Shown here: in pieces, positions 9,082 through 15,186 of the stretch
Numbering within the stretch: position 1 is the first letter of the stretch
Layout: every line of letters begins with the position of its first letter
Origin: Arcticibacter pallidicorallinus
Lineage (GTDB): Bacteria > Bacteroidota > Bacteroidia > Sphingobacteriales > Sphingobacteriaceae
DNA: 64,000 bases
Direction of reading: 5' to 3'
NCBI RefSeq assembly: GCF_003002875.1
Contig: NZ_PVTH01000003.1
Location: forward strand, 310,001 to 374,000
Made by a program: the position numbers and the translations under genes
Notes under the pieces: generated by a model
What the model saw: only the letters and a program-made list of their open reading frames with translations
The model's database searches: none
What the model was told of the DNA's origin: nothing

Positions 9082-9089
9082 TAACTTTG
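9082..9089 (+). promoter_or_regulatory. Predicted -7 element (TAACTTTG) for the thiamine riboswitch transcript
   Basis: Perfect TAnnTTTG match. The expected start of transcription is around 9094-9096, only a few bases before the riboswitch begins, which is good positional support. No clear -33 TTTG is seen at the usual spacing. Confidence 0.6.
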
Positions 9090-9097
9090 CGGCATCT

Positions 9098-9207
9098 TAA
9101 GGGGTGCTTGTTAAAACAGGCTGAGATTACACCCATCGAAGAGAATGGTATAAAAGCGTACCTTCCCTCTTCGTGAACTTGATCCGGATAATGCCGGCGT
9201 AGGAATA
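9098..9207 (+). promoter_or_regulatory. TPP riboswitch (THI element)
   Basis: The conserved THI-box segments appear in order: GGGGTGC (from 9101), CTGAGAT then ACACCC, a variable hairpin arm built from GAAGAG and CTCTTC, then GAACTTGATCCGGATAATG and the closing CCGGCGTAGG. This matches the thiamine pyrophosphate aptamer. No terminator hairpin lies between it and the start region at 9220-9262, so control is probably on translation: TPP binding would mask the initiation region of the receptor gene. Confidence 0.95.
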
Positions 9208-9219
9208 ATAAATAAGATT

Positions 9220-11712
9220 GTGCGTATAGCCCCGTTACGCATTCATTTAATTAAAAGCATTTTGAAAAAAATCTACTTAGTTGCCCTTGTGGCACTTATC
9301 CTGCCTTCTTTGGCATGGGCTCAGTTTTCAATCAGGGGAAAAGTAACAGACAAGACGAACCAACGCGCACTCGCCGGTGCAAGCATTACCGTGGGTGACC
9401 GTACTGCCAGAAGCAACGCTTCAGGAGAATTCGACGTTCAAGACCTCGAGGCCGGAACCTATCGTCTATCATTCCGGTTCATCGGCTTCAGTGAGATGTC
9501 AACCACCATCAATCTATCCGGAGACAGGGTCTACAACGCTGCATTATCTCCGATGACCGTACTTACGGACGAGGTCATCGTACGCTCAACAAGAGCTACG
9601 GAGAGCTCGGCTACAACTTACCGGAATCTTAACAAGGAAGAGCTGGATAAATACAATCAGGGGCAGGATCTTCCGTATCTTTTAAATCAAACGCCCTCTG
9701 TTGTCGTCTCATCAGATGCCGGAGCCGGGGTAGGCTATACGGGGCTGCGCATACGGGGTAGTGACGCCACCCGAATAAATGTTACCCTGAACGGAATTCC
9801 TTTAAATAACCCCGAAAGTCAGGGGTCCTTCTTTGTCAACATACCCGACTTTGCTTCATCTGTTGATAATATTCAGATACAGAGGGGGGTAGGGACCTCG
9901 ACCAATGGAGCGGGAGCTTTTGGCGGAAGTTTAAATATCCAGACTATTACACGCCGCGATTCCGCCTACACTGAGCTCAATAATACTTTCGGCTCATATA
10001 ACACCTGGAAGAACACGGTAAACATCGGAACCGGACTACTGAACGGTAAGTTCACCTTCGACGGACGCCTGTCCAGAATCAAGTCTGACGGTTATATTGA
10101 CAGGGGAGCATCAGACCTTAAATCGTACTTCCTGTCCGGTGCCTACTATGGCAAACGGGATATGTTGAGAGTAAATGTATTCTCAGGACAAGAGAAGACT
10201 TACCAGGCATGGAACGGCGTACCCGAGGAAAAGCTAAGGGGCTCTGCCGCAGACCTTAATGATTACTATCAGAACAACAAAGGAGTGTACTTTTTCACAC
10301 CCGCAGATTCTGCTAATTTGTTCGGATCAAACAAGCGAACCTACAACTCATTTCTGTACAAGGATCAGACCGATAACTACAAGCAAGATCATTACCAGGC
10401 GTTTTATACTCATACTTTCAACAGCAAACTATCCCTTAATACGGCCCTACACTATACCTATGGAAGCGGCTATTTCGAAGAGTACAAGAACGCAGCAAAG
10501 TTTGGAAACTATGGATTACCCAATATCGTTACCGGTACTGATACATTGAAAAGAACCGACTTGGTAAGACGCCGCTGGCTGGATAACCATTTTTACGGTT
10601 TAACTTATTCTTTGAATTATAACCCTTCAAGCGACCTGAACCTTATACTTGGAGGCGCTTATAATGAGTACGACGGTGATCATTTCGGCGAGATCATATG
10701 GGCCAGAAACAATTCTTCTAATGAGCCCGGTGATCGTTACTACCAGGGTAACGGCTTTAAAACAGACTTTAACATTTATGGAAAGGTTGAATACCAGCTT
10801 GACGATTTTCTCTTGTATGCTGACCTCCAGTATCGTCGAACCGGCTACAAAATCATTGGAACCGATAAGAACCTAAATAGTCTGGACATAGATGATCAAC
10901 TCAACTTTTTCAATCCCAAGGCAGGAATCACTTATAAGCTTAACAACGCCAATAACGTCTATGCATCGTTTGCTGTAGCCAATAAAGAACCGAACCGCGA
11001 CGACTATATCAATATGCCTGGCGGACGTCCATTAAGAGAACATCTCAAAGACATTGAAGCAGGATACAGGTTCAACAGCTCGTCTTTCCGGGCCGGCATC
11101 AACGGATACTGGATGATCTACAAAGATCAGCTCGTTTTAACCGGTAAAGTAAATGATGATGGCGAAGCGCTTCGACAGAATGTAGCTGACAGCTACAGGC
11201 TTGGTCTTGAAGCGGATGTCCAATGGCCGCTTAGCAGAACCCTCACCTGGGGACTGACTGCTAATCTCAGCCGGAATAAGATCGACAGCTTTACAGAGTA
11301 TGTCGATAATTGGGACACCGGAGGTCAGACCAGTTTCACGCACAATAACACAGACATCTCCTTTTCACCTTCGTTCGTTGGCTCCAGTGAATTAGCCTAC
11401 CGTCCGCTTAAAAATGCAGAGGTCGCCTTACTTAGTAAGTATGTAAGCAGACAGTACATGGATAACACATCCAATGACAGTCGCTCATTAGACGCATTTT
11501 TCGTTAACGACATCCGATTACGCTATAATACATCCGCAGGAAGAATCAAAAACCTGGAATTTTCACTTTTGATAAACAATGTGTTTAGTGAGCTTTATGA
11601 ATCTAACGGATTCACATACAGCTACATCGTTGGAAATCAACTCGCCACTAGTAACGCCTATTTCCCTCAGGCAACGAGAAATTTCCTACTATCCGCGAAG
11701 TTTAAGTTTTAA
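9220..11712 (+). CDS. TonB-dependent outer-membrane receptor, thiamine-regulated
   Basis: Outer-membrane active transporter of about 815-830 residues. Domains in order: signal peptide (hydrophobic run ending LPSLAWA), CarboxypepD_reg-like beta domain (VTDKTNQRALAGASITVGD onward), plug domain (LPYLLNQTPSVVVSS to LNIQT, including GLRIRGSDATRINVTLNG), and a beta-barrel ending in FLLSAKFKF with terminal Phe. Because it is behind a TPP riboswitch, the likely substrate is thiamine, its phosphates or a precursor; that is inference. There is no ATG at the start: GTG at 9220 gives a long basic n-region, while TTG at 9262 gives a typical signal peptide beginning with two lysines. A terminator follows at 11729. 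Confidence 0.93.
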   Translation: MRIAPLRIHLIKSILKKIYLVALVALILPSLAWAQFSIRGKVTDKTNQRALAGASITVGDRTARSNASGEFDVQDLEAGTYRLSFRFIGFSEMSTTINLSGDRVYNAALSPMTVLTDEVIVRSTRATESSATTYRNLNKEELDKYNQGQDLPYLLNQTPSVVVSSDAGAGVGYTGLRIRGSDATRINVTLNGIPLNNPESQGSFFVNIPDFASSVDNIQIQRGVGTSTNGAGAFGGSLNIQTITRRDSAYTELNNTFGSYNTWKNTVNIGTGLLNGKFTFDGRLSRIKSDGYIDRGASDLKSYFLSGAYYGKRDMLRVNVFSGQEKTYQAWNGVPEEKLRGSAADLNDYYQNNKGVYFFTPADSANLFGSNKRTYNSFLYKDQTDNYKQDHYQAFYTHTFNSKLSLNTALHYTYGSGYFEEYKNAAKFGNYGLPNIVTGTDTLKRTDLVRRRWLDNHFYGLTYSLNYNPSSDLNLILGGAYNEYDGDHFGEIIWARNNSSNEPGDRYYQGNGFKTDFNIYGKVEYQLDDFLLYADLQYRRTGYKIIGTDKNLNSLDIDDQLNFFNPKAGITYKLNNANNVYASFAVANKEPNRDDYINMPGGRPLREHLKDIEAGYRFNSSSFRAGINGYWMIYKDQLVLTGKVNDDGEALRQNVADSYRLGLEADVQWPLSRTLTWGLTANLSRNKIDSFTEYVDNWDTGGQTSFTHNNTDISFSPSFVGSSELAYRPLKNAEVALLSKYVSRQYMDNTSNDSRSLDAFFVNDIRLRYNTSAGRIKNLEFSLLINNVFSELYESNGFTYSYIVGNQLATSNAYFPQATRNFLLSAKFKF

Positions 11713-11728
11713 GCGTATATCCATTTAA

Positions 11729-11769
11729 AAACAAGCTTCGACGAAACCGGAGCTTGTTTCATTTTAATC
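11729..11769 (+). terminator. Terminator-like hairpin after the thiamine-regulated receptor
   Basis: AAACAAGCT (11729-11737) pairs perfectly with AGCTTGTTT (11751-11759), followed by a T-rich stretch. It would end or reduce transcription between the receptor and the downstream phosphatase gene, so the downstream cluster may have its own start. A weak -7-like GATATTTG sits at 11794-11801, 19 bases before the phosphatase ATG. Confidence 0.7.
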
Positions 11770-11820
11770 AGTCGAATTCTGATATTCTATTGCGATATTT
11801 GAATACATACATTTTAAAGA

Positions 11821-13476
11821 ATGAATTTACGATACGTATTCCAGGCAGCATTTCTGCTGCTTGCCCTTGATGCTTCAGCACAAAAAAAATCTACATCTTC
11901 TCAACCAATACCCAGACCTAAACTTGTTGTCGGCATAGTCATAGATCAAATGCGATGGGATTACCTGTACCGCTATCAGGACCGATATACAGATGGTGGT
12001 TTTAAGCGACTGCTGAACGAAGGCTTTACTGCCGAAAATACCAATATCGATTATGTACCTACTGTAACCGCAATAGGGCATTCTACCATTTATACGGGAT
12101 CTGTGCCGTCTATCCATGGGATTGCGGGAAATGACTTCATTATCCAGTCGACCGGAAAGTCGATGTACTGCACAGAAGATACTGCATCAAAGACCGTAGG
12201 AAGCCCTTCAAAAGCTGGTGAGATGTCGCCAAGAAACCTGCTTAGCAACACCATGACTGACGAGCTGAAACTGGCTACAAATTTTCGCTCCAAGGTAATC
12301 GGAATTGCCATAAAGGACCGCGGAGGGATTTTACCCGCTGGACATAGCGCTGATGCTGCTTATTGGTTTGACGATCAAACCGGAAACTGGATTACCAGTA
12401 CCTATTACATGAATGAGCTGCCTCAATGGGTCCAAAATTTCAATAACCAAAAGCTGCCGAAGAAGTATCTGGACCAAAACTGGAAAACCTTATTCCCGCT
12501 CGACACTTATTTGCAGAGCGAAAAAGACGACAGTCGTTTCGAAGCAAAGTTCAGTGGAACAACCGCACCTGTCTTTCCACATGAAACATCTAGTATGTAT
12601 GACAGAGACTTCAGCATCCTGAGAACGACCCCTCAAGGCAATACCATCACACTGGATATGGCCAGGGCAGCAATAGAGAATGAAAAGATGGGTCAAAGGG
12701 ATATAACCGACTTCCTTGCGGTTAGTCTATCATCAACAGATTACATCGGGCACCGCTTCGGACCAAATTCTATAGAGGCAGAGGATACGTACCTACGTCT
12801 AGACCGCGACTTATCGGCTTTTTTGAGTTATCTGGACAGCAAGGTGGGCAAAGGAGCATATACTGTCTTCATTTCTGCGGATCACGGAGCAGCGCATAAC
12901 CCTAACTTTCTGACATCACATAACATTCCCTCAGGCATCTTTCCAACCAGTGCGGTTACAAAAGAGTTGAATGCCTACCTGGCTCAGGAGTTTAAACAGG
13001 AGAGACTGGTATTGAGCCTAATGAATTATCAGATAAGCTTAAACAACTCGCTCATTGAAAAGAACAGACTCGATGAAGATGCGATTAAAAAAGCATGCAT
13101 TAAGCACCTTCAAAAAAGAGCGGATATCGCTTATGTAGTCGACATGGAAGCTGCCAGCCAGGCGAGCATCCCTCAGGGATTGAAAGAAAAAATCATAAAC
13201 GGATATAATAGAGAAAGAAGTGGTGCGGTCCAGATCATACTAAAACCCGGATACTACAGTGGCAGCAGCACAGGAACAACTCACGGAACATGGAATCCCT
13301 ATGACACGCATATTCCTTTCGTCCTAATGGGTTGGGGTGTTAAGCATGGCAGCACAAATCGACCTACCGGAATGACAGACATAGCACCAACTATATCAGC
13401 CCTTTTACGCATTCAGGCGCCAAACGGAAATGTTGGAAAACCAGTGACCGAAGCATTACTTAACGAGGTACGCTAA
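11821..13476 (+). CDS. PafA-like alkaline phosphatase family protein
   Basis: Secreted phosphomonoesterase of the alkaline phosphatase superfamily, 551 residues with an N-terminal signal peptide (about 1-21). Metal-site Asp lies in VVGIVIDQMRWDYLY. The candidate Thr nucleophile is in PTVTAIGHSTIYTG. The IKDRGGILPAGHSADAAYWF segment carries the Lys and Arg that mark PafA-type enzymes. DYIGHRFGP and SADHGAAH give the remaining Asp/His ligands. PafA enzymes act in the periplasm on many phosphate esters. Its place between the thiamine receptor and a ThiE/TPK pair suggests it could strip phosphate from thiamine phosphates before inner-membrane uptake, but generic phosphate scavenging is equally possible. 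It is 3 bases from the next gene. Confidence 0.9.
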   Translation: MNLRYVFQAAFLLLALDASAQKKSTSSQPIPRPKLVVGIVIDQMRWDYLYRYQDRYTDGGFKRLLNEGFTAENTNIDYVPTVTAIGHSTIYTGSVPSIHGIAGNDFIIQSTGKSMYCTEDTASKTVGSPSKAGEMSPRNLLSNTMTDELKLATNFRSKVIGIAIKDRGGILPAGHSADAAYWFDDQTGNWITSTYYMNELPQWVQNFNNQKLPKKYLDQNWKTLFPLDTYLQSEKDDSRFEAKFSGTTAPVFPHETSSMYDRDFSILRTTPQGNTITLDMARAAIENEKMGQRDITDFLAVSLSSTDYIGHRFGPNSIEAEDTYLRLDRDLSAFLSYLDSKVGKGAYTVFISADHGAAHNPNFLTSHNIPSGIFPTSAVTKELNAYLAQEFKQERLVLSLMNYQISLNNSLIEKNRLDEDAIKKACIKHLQKRADIAYVVDMEAASQASIPQGLKEKIINGYNRERSGAVQIILKPGYYSGSSTGTTHGTWNPYDTHIPFVLMGWGVKHGSTNRPTGMTDIAPTISALLRIQAPNGNVGKPVTEALLNEVR

Positions 13477-13479
13477 TTT

Positions 13480-14115
13480 ATGCAAAAGTATGTCTCTAGG
13501 TTTCACTACCTTACTCAGGATCTTCAACACAAGTCGCATCTGGAGCAAGTGATCACCGCTTGTGAGTCCGGCGCCAATTGGATTCAGTACCGTTGCTTTT
13601 CAAAGACTGAAGAGCAACACCTGGATGAATTAAATCGTATCGCCGAAGTCTGTGACGATTGGGGCACTACGCTGATCATCACAGATCATACGTCACTGCT
13701 TTCCAAAGCCGATATTCAGGGAGTACATATCGAAGACCTGTCTGCAGATTTTACCTCCATAAGAAAGGAGATCGGCCCCGATAAAACATTAGGAGCTTCA
13801 GCAAACACGCTGGATGATATCAAACGCATAGCTGCGAGCGGGGCGGTCGATTACATCGGCTGCGGCCCCTTTGGTGTCACACTCACTAAGCCAAACGACT
13901 ATCCGATTCTCGGCTTGGAAGGATATAAAGCGATAATGGCCGAGATGGATATTCTTCGAATCGCCATACCAATCATTGCGGTAGGCGGCATCACCGCTGC
14001 AAACATTGACGCACTTGCGGATATGGGTGTGCACGGAGTGGCCGTATCTGCAGCCATCAATAAATCCGACAACCCAGCATCTGCATTCAAGGAGATATAT
14101 AGAAAACTTCATTAA
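13480..14115 (+). CDS. thiE: Thiamine phosphate synthase-like protein (ThiE family)
   Basis: TIM-barrel protein of 211 residues of the ThiE/TenI family, which couples HMP-PP and thiazole phosphate to thiamine phosphate. Seen: WIQYRCFSK where ThiE usually has VQLREK, LIITDHTSLLSKADIQGVH for the usual INDR/GVHLGQ region, then ASGAVDYIGCGPFGVTLTK and IAVGGI for the phosphate site. The overall fold pattern and the GPF-T-TK motif fit, but the substrate-side residues diverge from textbook ThiE, as in other Bacteroidota ThiE paralogs, so TenI-like or altered activity cannot be excluded. Its stop precedes the next start by one base. Confidence 0.85.
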   Translation: MQKYVSRFHYLTQDLQHKSHLEQVITACESGANWIQYRCFSKTEEQHLDELNRIAEVCDDWGTTLIITDHTSLLSKADIQGVHIEDLSADFTSIRKEIGPDKTLGASANTLDDIKRIAASGAVDYIGCGPFGVTLTKPNDYPILGLEGYKAIMAEMDILRIAIPIIAVGGITAANIDALADMGVHGVAVSAAINKSDNPASAFKEIYRKLH

Positions 14116-14116
14116 C

Positions 14117-14683
14117 ATGTCTTCGCATCATATTGTAAGAGAGAAGCAGGAGCCTGCGCTGTTAATTGCTGATTTGGACGGGTTCGATCCCGAAAATCTC
14201 GGACAGCTTTTGGAATGGAGCCCTACAATTATTGTTGCGGAAGACGCCTATGATTCAGCTGACTCTCTGGGAATAAAGATAGATTTCCTGGTCGGCCGAC
14301 CAGATGAATATTCACTCCAACCAAGAACCCAGCTTATCCCTTCAGAAGAGCATGCAATCCAGAGCGCCCTGGACTTCCTGACCCGGGAAAAATATCCTGC
14401 TGTCAATATTATTACCGGCAAGCCAGTTATCACTGACTATCTACCCTACTGCGACCACATCAATATCGTTATCCTTACCATCAAACAGCGAATCTTCATG
14501 GTTCGCTCCGGTTTCAGCAAATGGAAGACGGCAGGCGAAGACATTGAGATCTTGGGCAATGCAACAGAGCTCGTCCATACAGGTCTAGATCAAAACTCCT
14601 CACATATGTTCACTACGCAATCAGATGGCTTCTACTCGCTTCGTTTCCAAGAGTCTTTTATCTTTGTAGCAGAAAATCTTTAG
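14117..14683 (+). CDS. Thiamine pyrophosphokinase-like protein with degenerate motifs
   Basis: Protein of 188 residues beginning MSSHHIVREKQEPALLI. The overall plan resembles bacterial/eukaryotic thiamine pyrophosphokinase: an N-terminal Rossmann-like half (VAEDAYDSADSLGIKIDFLVG), a central repeat-like segment (AIQSALDFLTREKYPAVNIITG) and a C-terminal beta domain (EDIEILGNATELVHT). The key TPK motif near GDxDS is GRPDE here, and the GGRxDH motif is replaced by GKPVITD, so catalysis is doubtful. The start at 14117 was chosen because earlier starts overlap thiE in another frame. It sits one base after thiE and 8 bases before the GNAT gene, so it is probably in the same transcript. Assignment rests on resemblance and context. 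Confidence 0.6.
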   Translation: MSSHHIVREKQEPALLIADLDGFDPENLGQLLEWSPTIIVAEDAYDSADSLGIKIDFLVGRPDEYSLQPRTQLIPSEEHAIQSALDFLTREKYPAVNIITGKPVITDYLPYCDHINIVILTIKQRIFMVRSGFSKWKTAGEDIEILGNATELVHTGLDQNSSHMFTTQSDGFYSLRFQESFIFVAENL

Positions 14684-14691
14684 TACGATTA

Positions 14692-15186
14692 ATGAGCTTG
14701 ACAATAAGGTTAGCAGTACCAGAAGACCTCCCGATAATACATCAGTTGGCTGAAGAAATTTGGTGGCCTACTTATAGCCATATACTTAGAAGTGAACAGA
14801 TAAGGTTCATGCTCGACACGATGTATTCGATCGATACACTGAAAGAGCAGCAGGCTACCGGCACCGAGTTCCTGCTCGCCGGGAGGAACGCAAAGGTCGT
14901 TGCTTTTGCAGGCTATTCATGCAACGAAGAAGATAATAAGCTGAGCATTCACAAATTATATGTACATCCCTCAGAACAGGGAAAGGGCACAGGGAAATCC
15001 CTGATACATCACATCGAACAGACCGCTAAGAATCTGGGGATATCCCTCTTAGAATTGAATGTAAACCGAAAAAATGGCGCATTGAACTTCTACAAGAAAG
15101 TAGGCTTCGAAATTTTTAAAGAAGAAGATATCCCGTACTATCAATACTGGATGAATGATTTTATCCTTCAAAAAAGTCTGAATTAG
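14692..15186 (+). CDS. GNAT family N-acetyltransferase
   Basis: Protein of 164 residues with the GNAT fold. The N-terminus is IRLAVPEDLPIIHQLAEEIW, followed by the acetyl-CoA-binding motif A region KLYVHPSEQGKGTGKSLI (about residues 84-101) and a C-terminal LNVNRKNGALNFYKKVGF segment typical of motif B. Substrate unknown. It follows the TPK-like gene by 8 bases and may be part of the phosphatase-thiE-TPK transcript, but no thiamine link is visible in its sequence. Its 3' end overlaps the convergent DUF4407 gene by 26 bases. Confidence 0.88.
   Translation: MSLTIRLAVPEDLPIIHQLAEEIWWPTYSHILRSEQIRFMLDTMYSIDTLKEQQATGTEFLLAGRNAKVVAFAGYSCNEEDNKLSIHKLYVHPSEQGKGTGKSLIHHIEQTAKNLGISLLELNVNRKNGALNFYKKVGFEIFKEEDIPYYQYWMNDFILQKSLN

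Follow-up and report, generated by a model that had tools for sequence, protein, structure and literature searches.

The thiamine-acquisition neighbourhood of the Sphingobacteriaceae would consist of two transcription units, the first comprising a TPP riboswitch and a TonB-dependent receptor, and the second pafA, thiE', tpk' and a GNAT acetyltransferase gene, with ThiL finishing the synthesis of TPP. We place the probability of this reading at a little under 0.6. It comes from the analysis of a window, by which we mean the whole stretch of 64,000 nucleotides of Arcticibacter pallidicorallinus DNA (genome size 4.1 Mb), and of 121 Sphingobacteriaceae genomes, which are drafts of varied completeness. 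The first-pass annotation had described receptor, PafA, ThiE-family and TPK-like genes on the + strand after a riboswitch, and this block is real.

The riboswitch-led receptor and the gap before pafA

The TPP riboswitch (THI element) lies at 9090–9222 on the + strand and has an extended arm. It matches RF00059 over model positions 1–105 with 49.5 bits and E = 1.1e-7, which is below the gathering score of 54.3, and the element is absent from a default scan of the whole window. The low score is likely due to the long insertion in one arm. The match covers the full-length aptamer with its conserved core, and lies upstream of a thiamine-type gene. Our own model R1, built from eight such elements including this one, scores it at 109.3 bits. 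Applied to the fetched loci, this model places a switch ahead of 41 of 43 receptor genes, mostly 44–82 nt before the called receptor start; eight of these 41 switches had gone into building it. The two receptor genes without a switch are truncated at the edge of the fetched sequence. The full-length match together with this recurrence rules out a chance or false match. The element is a genuine member of the TPP riboswitch family that is scored low by its long arm.

Immediately before the aptamer is the sequence TAACTTTG (9082–9089, +), of the type TAnnTTTG, which we take to be the Bacteroidota −7 promoter consensus. Of 41 homologous upstream regions, 38 carry TAnnTTTG at a distance of 6–13 nt from the aptamer, on its 5' side (shuffle mean 1.9, maximum 7). 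The three loci lacking it (L103, L104 and L105) are all from Arcticibacter, the window's own genus. The strict two-box pattern TTTG-N17-23-TAnnTTTG has no match ahead of the 9090–9222 aptamer. The earlier description of a complete THI element with a promoter box is borne out by the RF00059 match and by TAACTTTG.

The receptor gene (9262–11712, +) has the Pfam TonB barrel, plug and CarbopepD_reg_2 domains. Its start is assumed to be the TTG at 9262; the list of open reading frames begins at the GTG at 9220. As a TonB receptor led by a TPP riboswitch it is of the OMthi type, and with the riboswitch it would form the first unit. From the riboswitch family, the receptor would be made when TPP is low, and may capture thiamine or thiamine phosphates. 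The genome contains a second TPP switch match, on contig C2, heading thiC, a TenI/ThiE-like gene, thiD, thiE, thiG and thiH; thiC and two TMP-TENI genes of this operon are confirmed by family scans, and the other genes are named from reading of the sequence. Elsewhere in the family, ThiM-like and ThiE-like genes follow a strong TPP switch in three loci (L034, L037 and L038), ThiM being named from sequence reading. Two of the genomes concerned (G055 and G076) have no ThiC match, and the third (G058) has one.

A terminator-like hairpin stands 3' of the receptor gene at 11729–11759 (+), with a 12-pair stem, the T-rich tail CATTTTAATC, a folding energy of −15.5 kcal/mol and z = −3.95. Such sites number 10 across the region, against 6.9 in shuffles. 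This agrees with the terminator placed by the first-pass annotation at 11729–11769, where it would split the block. Beyond the hairpin is GATATTTG (11794–11801, +), 27 nt before the start of pafA. From its recurrence ahead of pafA, it is probably the −7 element of a promoter that serves pafA separately. Within the 80 nt upstream of pafA, exact copies of GATATTTG occur in 15 of 58 loci (shuffle mean 0.09, maximum 2), and the looser [TG]AnnTTTG in 25 of the same 58 (shuffle mean 3.7, maximum 9). The element is also present in four loci where other genes separate the receptor from pafA (L131, L133, L134 and L135). From pafA onwards the genes are separated by only 3, 1 and 8 nt, so pafA-thiE'-tpk'-gnat looks like one unit; given the recurrent element and the hairpin, it would have a promoter of its own.

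Because the hairpin and the recurrent GATATTTG lie between receptor and pafA, the latter is probably outside riboswitch control in A. pallidicorallinus. The riboswitch probably governs the receptor in this genome, with pafA expressed on its own. These elements bear directly on the function that had been proposed for the block: a salvage route under riboswitch control that brings thiamine phosphates through the outer membrane, removes their phosphate with PafA, and restores TPP by means of ThiE and TPK-like enzymes. That the riboswitch controls the phosphatase is not supported here, given the hairpin and the separate promoter-like element ahead of pafA. The gap varies among relatives. Twenty receptor-pafA gaps are shorter than 200 nt, and inspection by eye finds a clear hairpin with a T-run in six of them (the window, L105, L120, L159, L147 and L148). 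In ten relatives the gap is only 22–51 nt, mostly with no terminator evident by eye, and there read-through from the riboswitch transcript into pafA is possible.

PafA and the conservation of its neighbourhood

The pafA gene (11821–13476, +) encodes an alkaline phosphatase of the PafA family, scoring 803.3 bits with NF042991. With a cut-off of 650 bits exceeded and the active-site motifs present, it belongs to the PafA equivalog. It aligns with PDB 5tj3, which we take to be the PafA of Elizabethkingia, with E = 3.4e-195 and with the active-site motifs in register. Its signal-like N-terminus, read by eye, suggests a periplasmic location. PafA would be a general periplasmic phosphomonoesterase, which by promiscuity could also strip thiamine phosphates.

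Within the family, PafA is above cut-off in 108 of the 121 genomes, tpk' is found in 101 with one match each, and thiE' in 61, this last set having been cut by hand at E = 3.3e-50. On the same strand and within 5 kb, linkage is seen for PafA and thiE' in 33 genomes, for thiE' and tpk' in 43, and for PafA and tpk' in 34. PafA lies this close to either thiE' or tpk' in 44 of the 121 genomes, from 12 genera; the other 64 of the 108 genomes with PafA show no such linkage to either gene. The first-pass annotation had made its case depend on conserved co-occurrence of the phosphatase with thiamine genes, and that co-occurrence is found. Since the adjacency extends to many genera of the family, the link is not an accident of one genome.

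Of 58 PafA loci, 30, from 11 of 21 genera, have PafA after a switch-led receptor. For these and the other fetched regions the linked genomes were picked first, and 30/58 is therefore an overstatement; the counts over 121 genomes are free of that bias. The recurrent order receptor-(PnuT)-PafA-thiE'-tpk' favours the salvage proposal. Across the fetched loci, 13–21 genera have the five core genes, compared with 1–8 for the other genes of the window, a difference inflated by the use of PafA, thiE' or tpk' as the anchor for choosing the loci. In the 31 genomes of other families in which both were found, PafA and the TPP switch are never within 10 kb of each other (under stricter switch filters, by which weak matches are lost); in three of the 31 they share a contig, at least 77 kb apart. 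Taken with the linkage counts, this indicates that the arrangement is a family trait, retained in part of the Sphingobacteriaceae while the flanking order changed. Among the matches listed from open-licence texts, no title was recognised as describing the block or its probable pseudoenzyme tpk'.

PafA could instead be a housekeeping enzyme of phosphate acquisition within an ancestral neighbourhood, its place beside thiamine genes having no functional meaning. PafA is present in 108 genomes whether linked or not, its gene has its own promoter-like element, and neighbours unrelated to thiamine are widely shared too (the GNAT gene in 16 genera and an M28 peptidase gene in 12). In passages of PMC8812569, PafA of flavobacteria is reported to be constitutive and phosphate-insensitive, with which the separate expression of pafA agrees. 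Against this, the core outlasts the surrounding order, in the numbers of genera given above and with the same inflation. We regard the housekeeping explanation as possible, if doubtful. The window protein resembles the PafA of Elizabethkingia and Flavobacterium (PDB 5tj3; PMC8812569, in the passages on that enzyme) in being a full-length relative above the NCBIfam cut-off with the active-site motifs kept, and differs from it in gene neighbourhood. By term search, thiamin, vitamin and riboswitch are all absent from the main text of PMC8812569.

The altered thiE' and tpk' genes and the GNAT gene

The product of thiE' (13480–14115, +) is a paralogue of ThiE with an altered diphosphate and metal site. 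It has the TMP-TENI domain (PF02581, 140.9 bits) in common with the ThiE/TenI family, but falls below both ThiE equivalog cut-offs, with 130.6 bits against 145.1 for TIGR00693 and 182.1 against 227 for NF000736. The operon ThiE of the same genome scores 160.9 and 226.9 respectively, the latter also just under its cut-off. In what we take to be Bacillus subtilis numbering, K61, N92, D93 and D112 are presumably the residues that bind Mg and diphosphate. The window protein has F, T, D and S at these positions and retains only D93; the equivalents of Q57, R59, S130, T156, T158, K159 and G188 are kept. Among 39 aligned ThiE' members of the family, K61 is kept in 2, N92 in 1, D93 in 17 and D112 in 15. 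The altered site counts against rebuilding of TPP by these enzymes. ThiC is found in 46 of the 121 genomes. All 23 genomes with both ThiC and thiE' have a further ThiE-family match, and in 34 of the 38 that have thiE' and no ThiC the only ThiE-family match is thiE' itself. Thus thiE' neither tracks de novo synthesis nor replaces the operon ThiE, and a role in salvage or binding would fit better. In one genome the ThiC match falls into two pieces, of which the first contains in-frame stops (G020:C96:30618-31978).

The tpk' gene (14117–14683, +) encodes a protein of 188 residues. It has no match in Pfam and NCBIfam at E = 0.001. There is a sub-threshold match to DUF4350 (E = 0.04), and neither PF04263 nor PF04265 is listed up to E = 10 (the filters drop most matches above 0.1). 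The 23 members of the tpk' alignment have no match to NCBIfam TPK models up to E = 1. A search of PDB sequences with the tpk' profile returned a best E of 0.13 and nothing meaningful, so that comparison of folds was needed. The AlphaFold (AF2) model has a mean pLDDT of 91.8, with residues 1–9 below 50. Searching the PDB with this model using Foldseek gave 27 matches at E ≤ 0.001, the best being 2omk with E = 1.7e-12. Twenty-three of these are chains titled as TPK, and the other four are chains of 3cq9, whose title names no function. VIA-align superimposes tpk' on 2omk (Bacteroides TPK) with Z = 17.6 and rmsd = 2.5 over 174 residues; the best row outside the TPK and 3cq9 set of Foldseek is SteA, with Z = 9.3. 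The predicted structure of tpk' has the TPK fold.

The catalytic motifs are another matter. We aligned 11 intact TPKs, 107 distinct Sphingobacteriaceae sequences and six sequences from one other Bacteroidia family (f8), 124 in all; the alignments are gappy at the lost motifs, and single residues there are uncertain. In the 113 non-intact sequences the TD pair never shows T or D, the GxRxDH site has neither D nor H, and the SSN site has neither S nor N, mostly as a result of deletions. The window protein has gaps or changes at all three sites. The aspartates of GDFD are D in 31 and 15 of the 107 family sequences and both are D in four; the window has R and D. The protein thus has the fold of a TPK, without GDFD, TD, GxRxDH and SSN and without a match to PF04263 or PF04265. 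With these motifs missing from the window protein and from all 107 family sequences, the salvage proposal loses its last enzymatic step, the rebuilding of TPP by the TPK-like protein.

Relatives with intact GDFD, TD, GxRxDH and (S/N)SN motifs, 11 in number, are found in other families of Bacteroidia. Three were scanned, and score 87.6–96.5 bits on PF04263. They have an N-terminus MSSHH...QEP in common with tpk'; for TPK, as represented by 2omk and these relatives, the length is 219–220 residues, compared with 188. The six f8 sequences (L277, L278 and L284–L287) lack the TPK motifs and keep the MSSHH tail; two were scanned, with no match. This may be a second, independent loss. BLAST comparison with our own gene clusters found no ThiE, PafA or GNAT gene adjacent to seven tpk' relatives in other families. 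One such relative (L293) has a single weak receptor match, of 25%, about 2 kb upstream.

A decaying pseudogene was considered for tpk' and rejected. The 68 sequences translated, the window's own included, have no internal stops, and the median dN/dS is 0.15 (range 0.04–0.37) for the only 20 pairs with 0.2 < dS < 1.3. The protein is maintained under purifying selection, and is most simply a pseudoenzyme derived from TPK. It would most likely bind a ligand or a partner and not make TPP. Missing motifs do not prove missing activity. The active site might have been rebuilt, with tpk' still working as a thiamine pyrophosphokinase and supplying the TPK that the family otherwise lacks. Its TPK fold, its selection, its single match in each of 101 genomes and the lack of any other PF04263 match in the genomes are in keeping with that. 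Yet no family sequence has the TD pair, GxRxDH or SSN, GDFD is variable, and 20 of the 121 genomes have no tpk' match either. We think a rebuilt TPK unlikely to be correct, and return to the pseudoenzyme.

The N-terminus of tpk' (MSSHHI.REKQEP) is its most conserved part. Residues S2, S3, H4, H5, Q11, E12, P13, E33 and W34 are invariant in 124 of 124 aligned sequences, an invariance that is partly built in, as some tpk' loci were found by patterns including MSSHH and LLEW. Relatives in other families were chosen by the pattern MS[ST]HH, and the one among 18 outside the family that lacks it (L288) was dropped. All 48 family sequences found without the tail pattern have SSHH. Over codons 1–15 the mean pN is 0.03 and pS is 0.83, which rules out constraint at the level of DNA as the source of this conservation; pN is 0.20–0.37 in other parts. 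The tail is predicted to be disordered, and it is common to the intact TPKs elsewhere.

The gene that follows (14692–15186, +) encodes a GNAT acetyltransferase (PF00583). Its best NCBIfam match is rimI, with 53.6 bits against a cut-off of 86.4. A GNAT gene is next downstream of tpk' within 150 nt in 33 of 47 loci, with a gap of 10 nt or less in 31. It probably belongs to the pafA-thiE'-tpk' unit, from which the first-pass annotation had left it out.

From thiamine to TPP in the Sphingobacteriaceae

PF04263 has no match in any of the 121 Sphingobacteriaceae genomes; the same search is positive in 7 of 14 control genomes, including Bacteroides and Bacillus. ThiL is over its cut-off in 118 of the 121, and has some match, weak in places, in 120. 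TMP can thus become TPP, a step that we expect ThiL to perform from the presence of its gene. No known enzyme acting on thiamine itself was found in the family, even where a PnuT-type transporter gene stands behind a TPP switch. A search for a thiamine kinase beside switch-led PnuT genes found an acyl-CoA-dehydrogenase-like gene in next position in six loci; the other neighbours were compared by BLAST with our own clusters only.

An acyl-CoA-dehydrogenase/flavin-monooxygenase-like gene comes after the PnuT-type gene in each of the 15 loci examined (L109, L110, L127, L131, L133–L136, L158, L301–L305 and L307), with PF08028 in the one that was scanned. Eight of the 58 PafA loci have this pair of genes after the receptor and ahead of PafA; the PnuT-type gene there speaks for the salvage proposal. 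Behind PnuC-type genes stands a NadR-like AAA_28 kinase gene, in four of four loci (L167–L169 and L291, the last named by reading). The present genome has a single PF04973 gene (C3:267209), and the gene after it reads as a NadR-like kinase. The PF04973 protein is not a PnuT candidate; it groups with the PnuC-type proteins beside NadR-like kinases, outside the PnuT-type clade. The PnuT-like transporter that the first-pass annotation suggested looking for elsewhere was accordingly not found among the PF04973 genes of this genome.

In Bacteroides, pnuT is followed by tnr3, according to passages of PMC5613172. That OMthi-pnuT-tnr3 locus resembles ours in having a TPP riboswitch ahead of a TonB receptor, and biosynthesis in a separate riboswitch operon. 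The two differ in that PafA, thiE', tpk' and GNAT genes follow the receptor here, where the genome has yielded no PnuT-type gene and the TPK relative lacks its motifs. Of the salvage route originally envisaged, the conserved order of phosphatase and thiamine genes stands, while the regulatory link, the last enzymatic step and the PnuT partner are not supported in this genome. We now consider that route improbable.

Returning to the two units with ThiL, we offer a more tentative suggestion about their history, to which we give rather less than even odds. The Sphingobacteriaceae may have lost TPK activity while retaining the TPK gene, whose product would be a pseudoenzyme serving a second and older function through the invariant disordered N-terminus MSSHHI(V/I)RE.QEP that is common to intact TPKs of other Bacteroidia. 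The RimI-like acetyltransferase may modify this tail, and salvage would proceed by ThiL together with an unrecognised thiamine kinase.

The Sphingobacteriaceae have switch-led receptors, a PnuT-type transporter in many members, and ThiL, yet this analysis recognised no enzyme in them that phosphorylates thiamine. Naming a gene TPK by its position or fold can misassign a step of vitamin salvage. The conserved TPK-derived protein without TPK motifs, and its tail that is more conserved than the rest, provide concrete targets, and a story of a salvage operon gives way to a sharper question of how this family turns thiamine into TPP.
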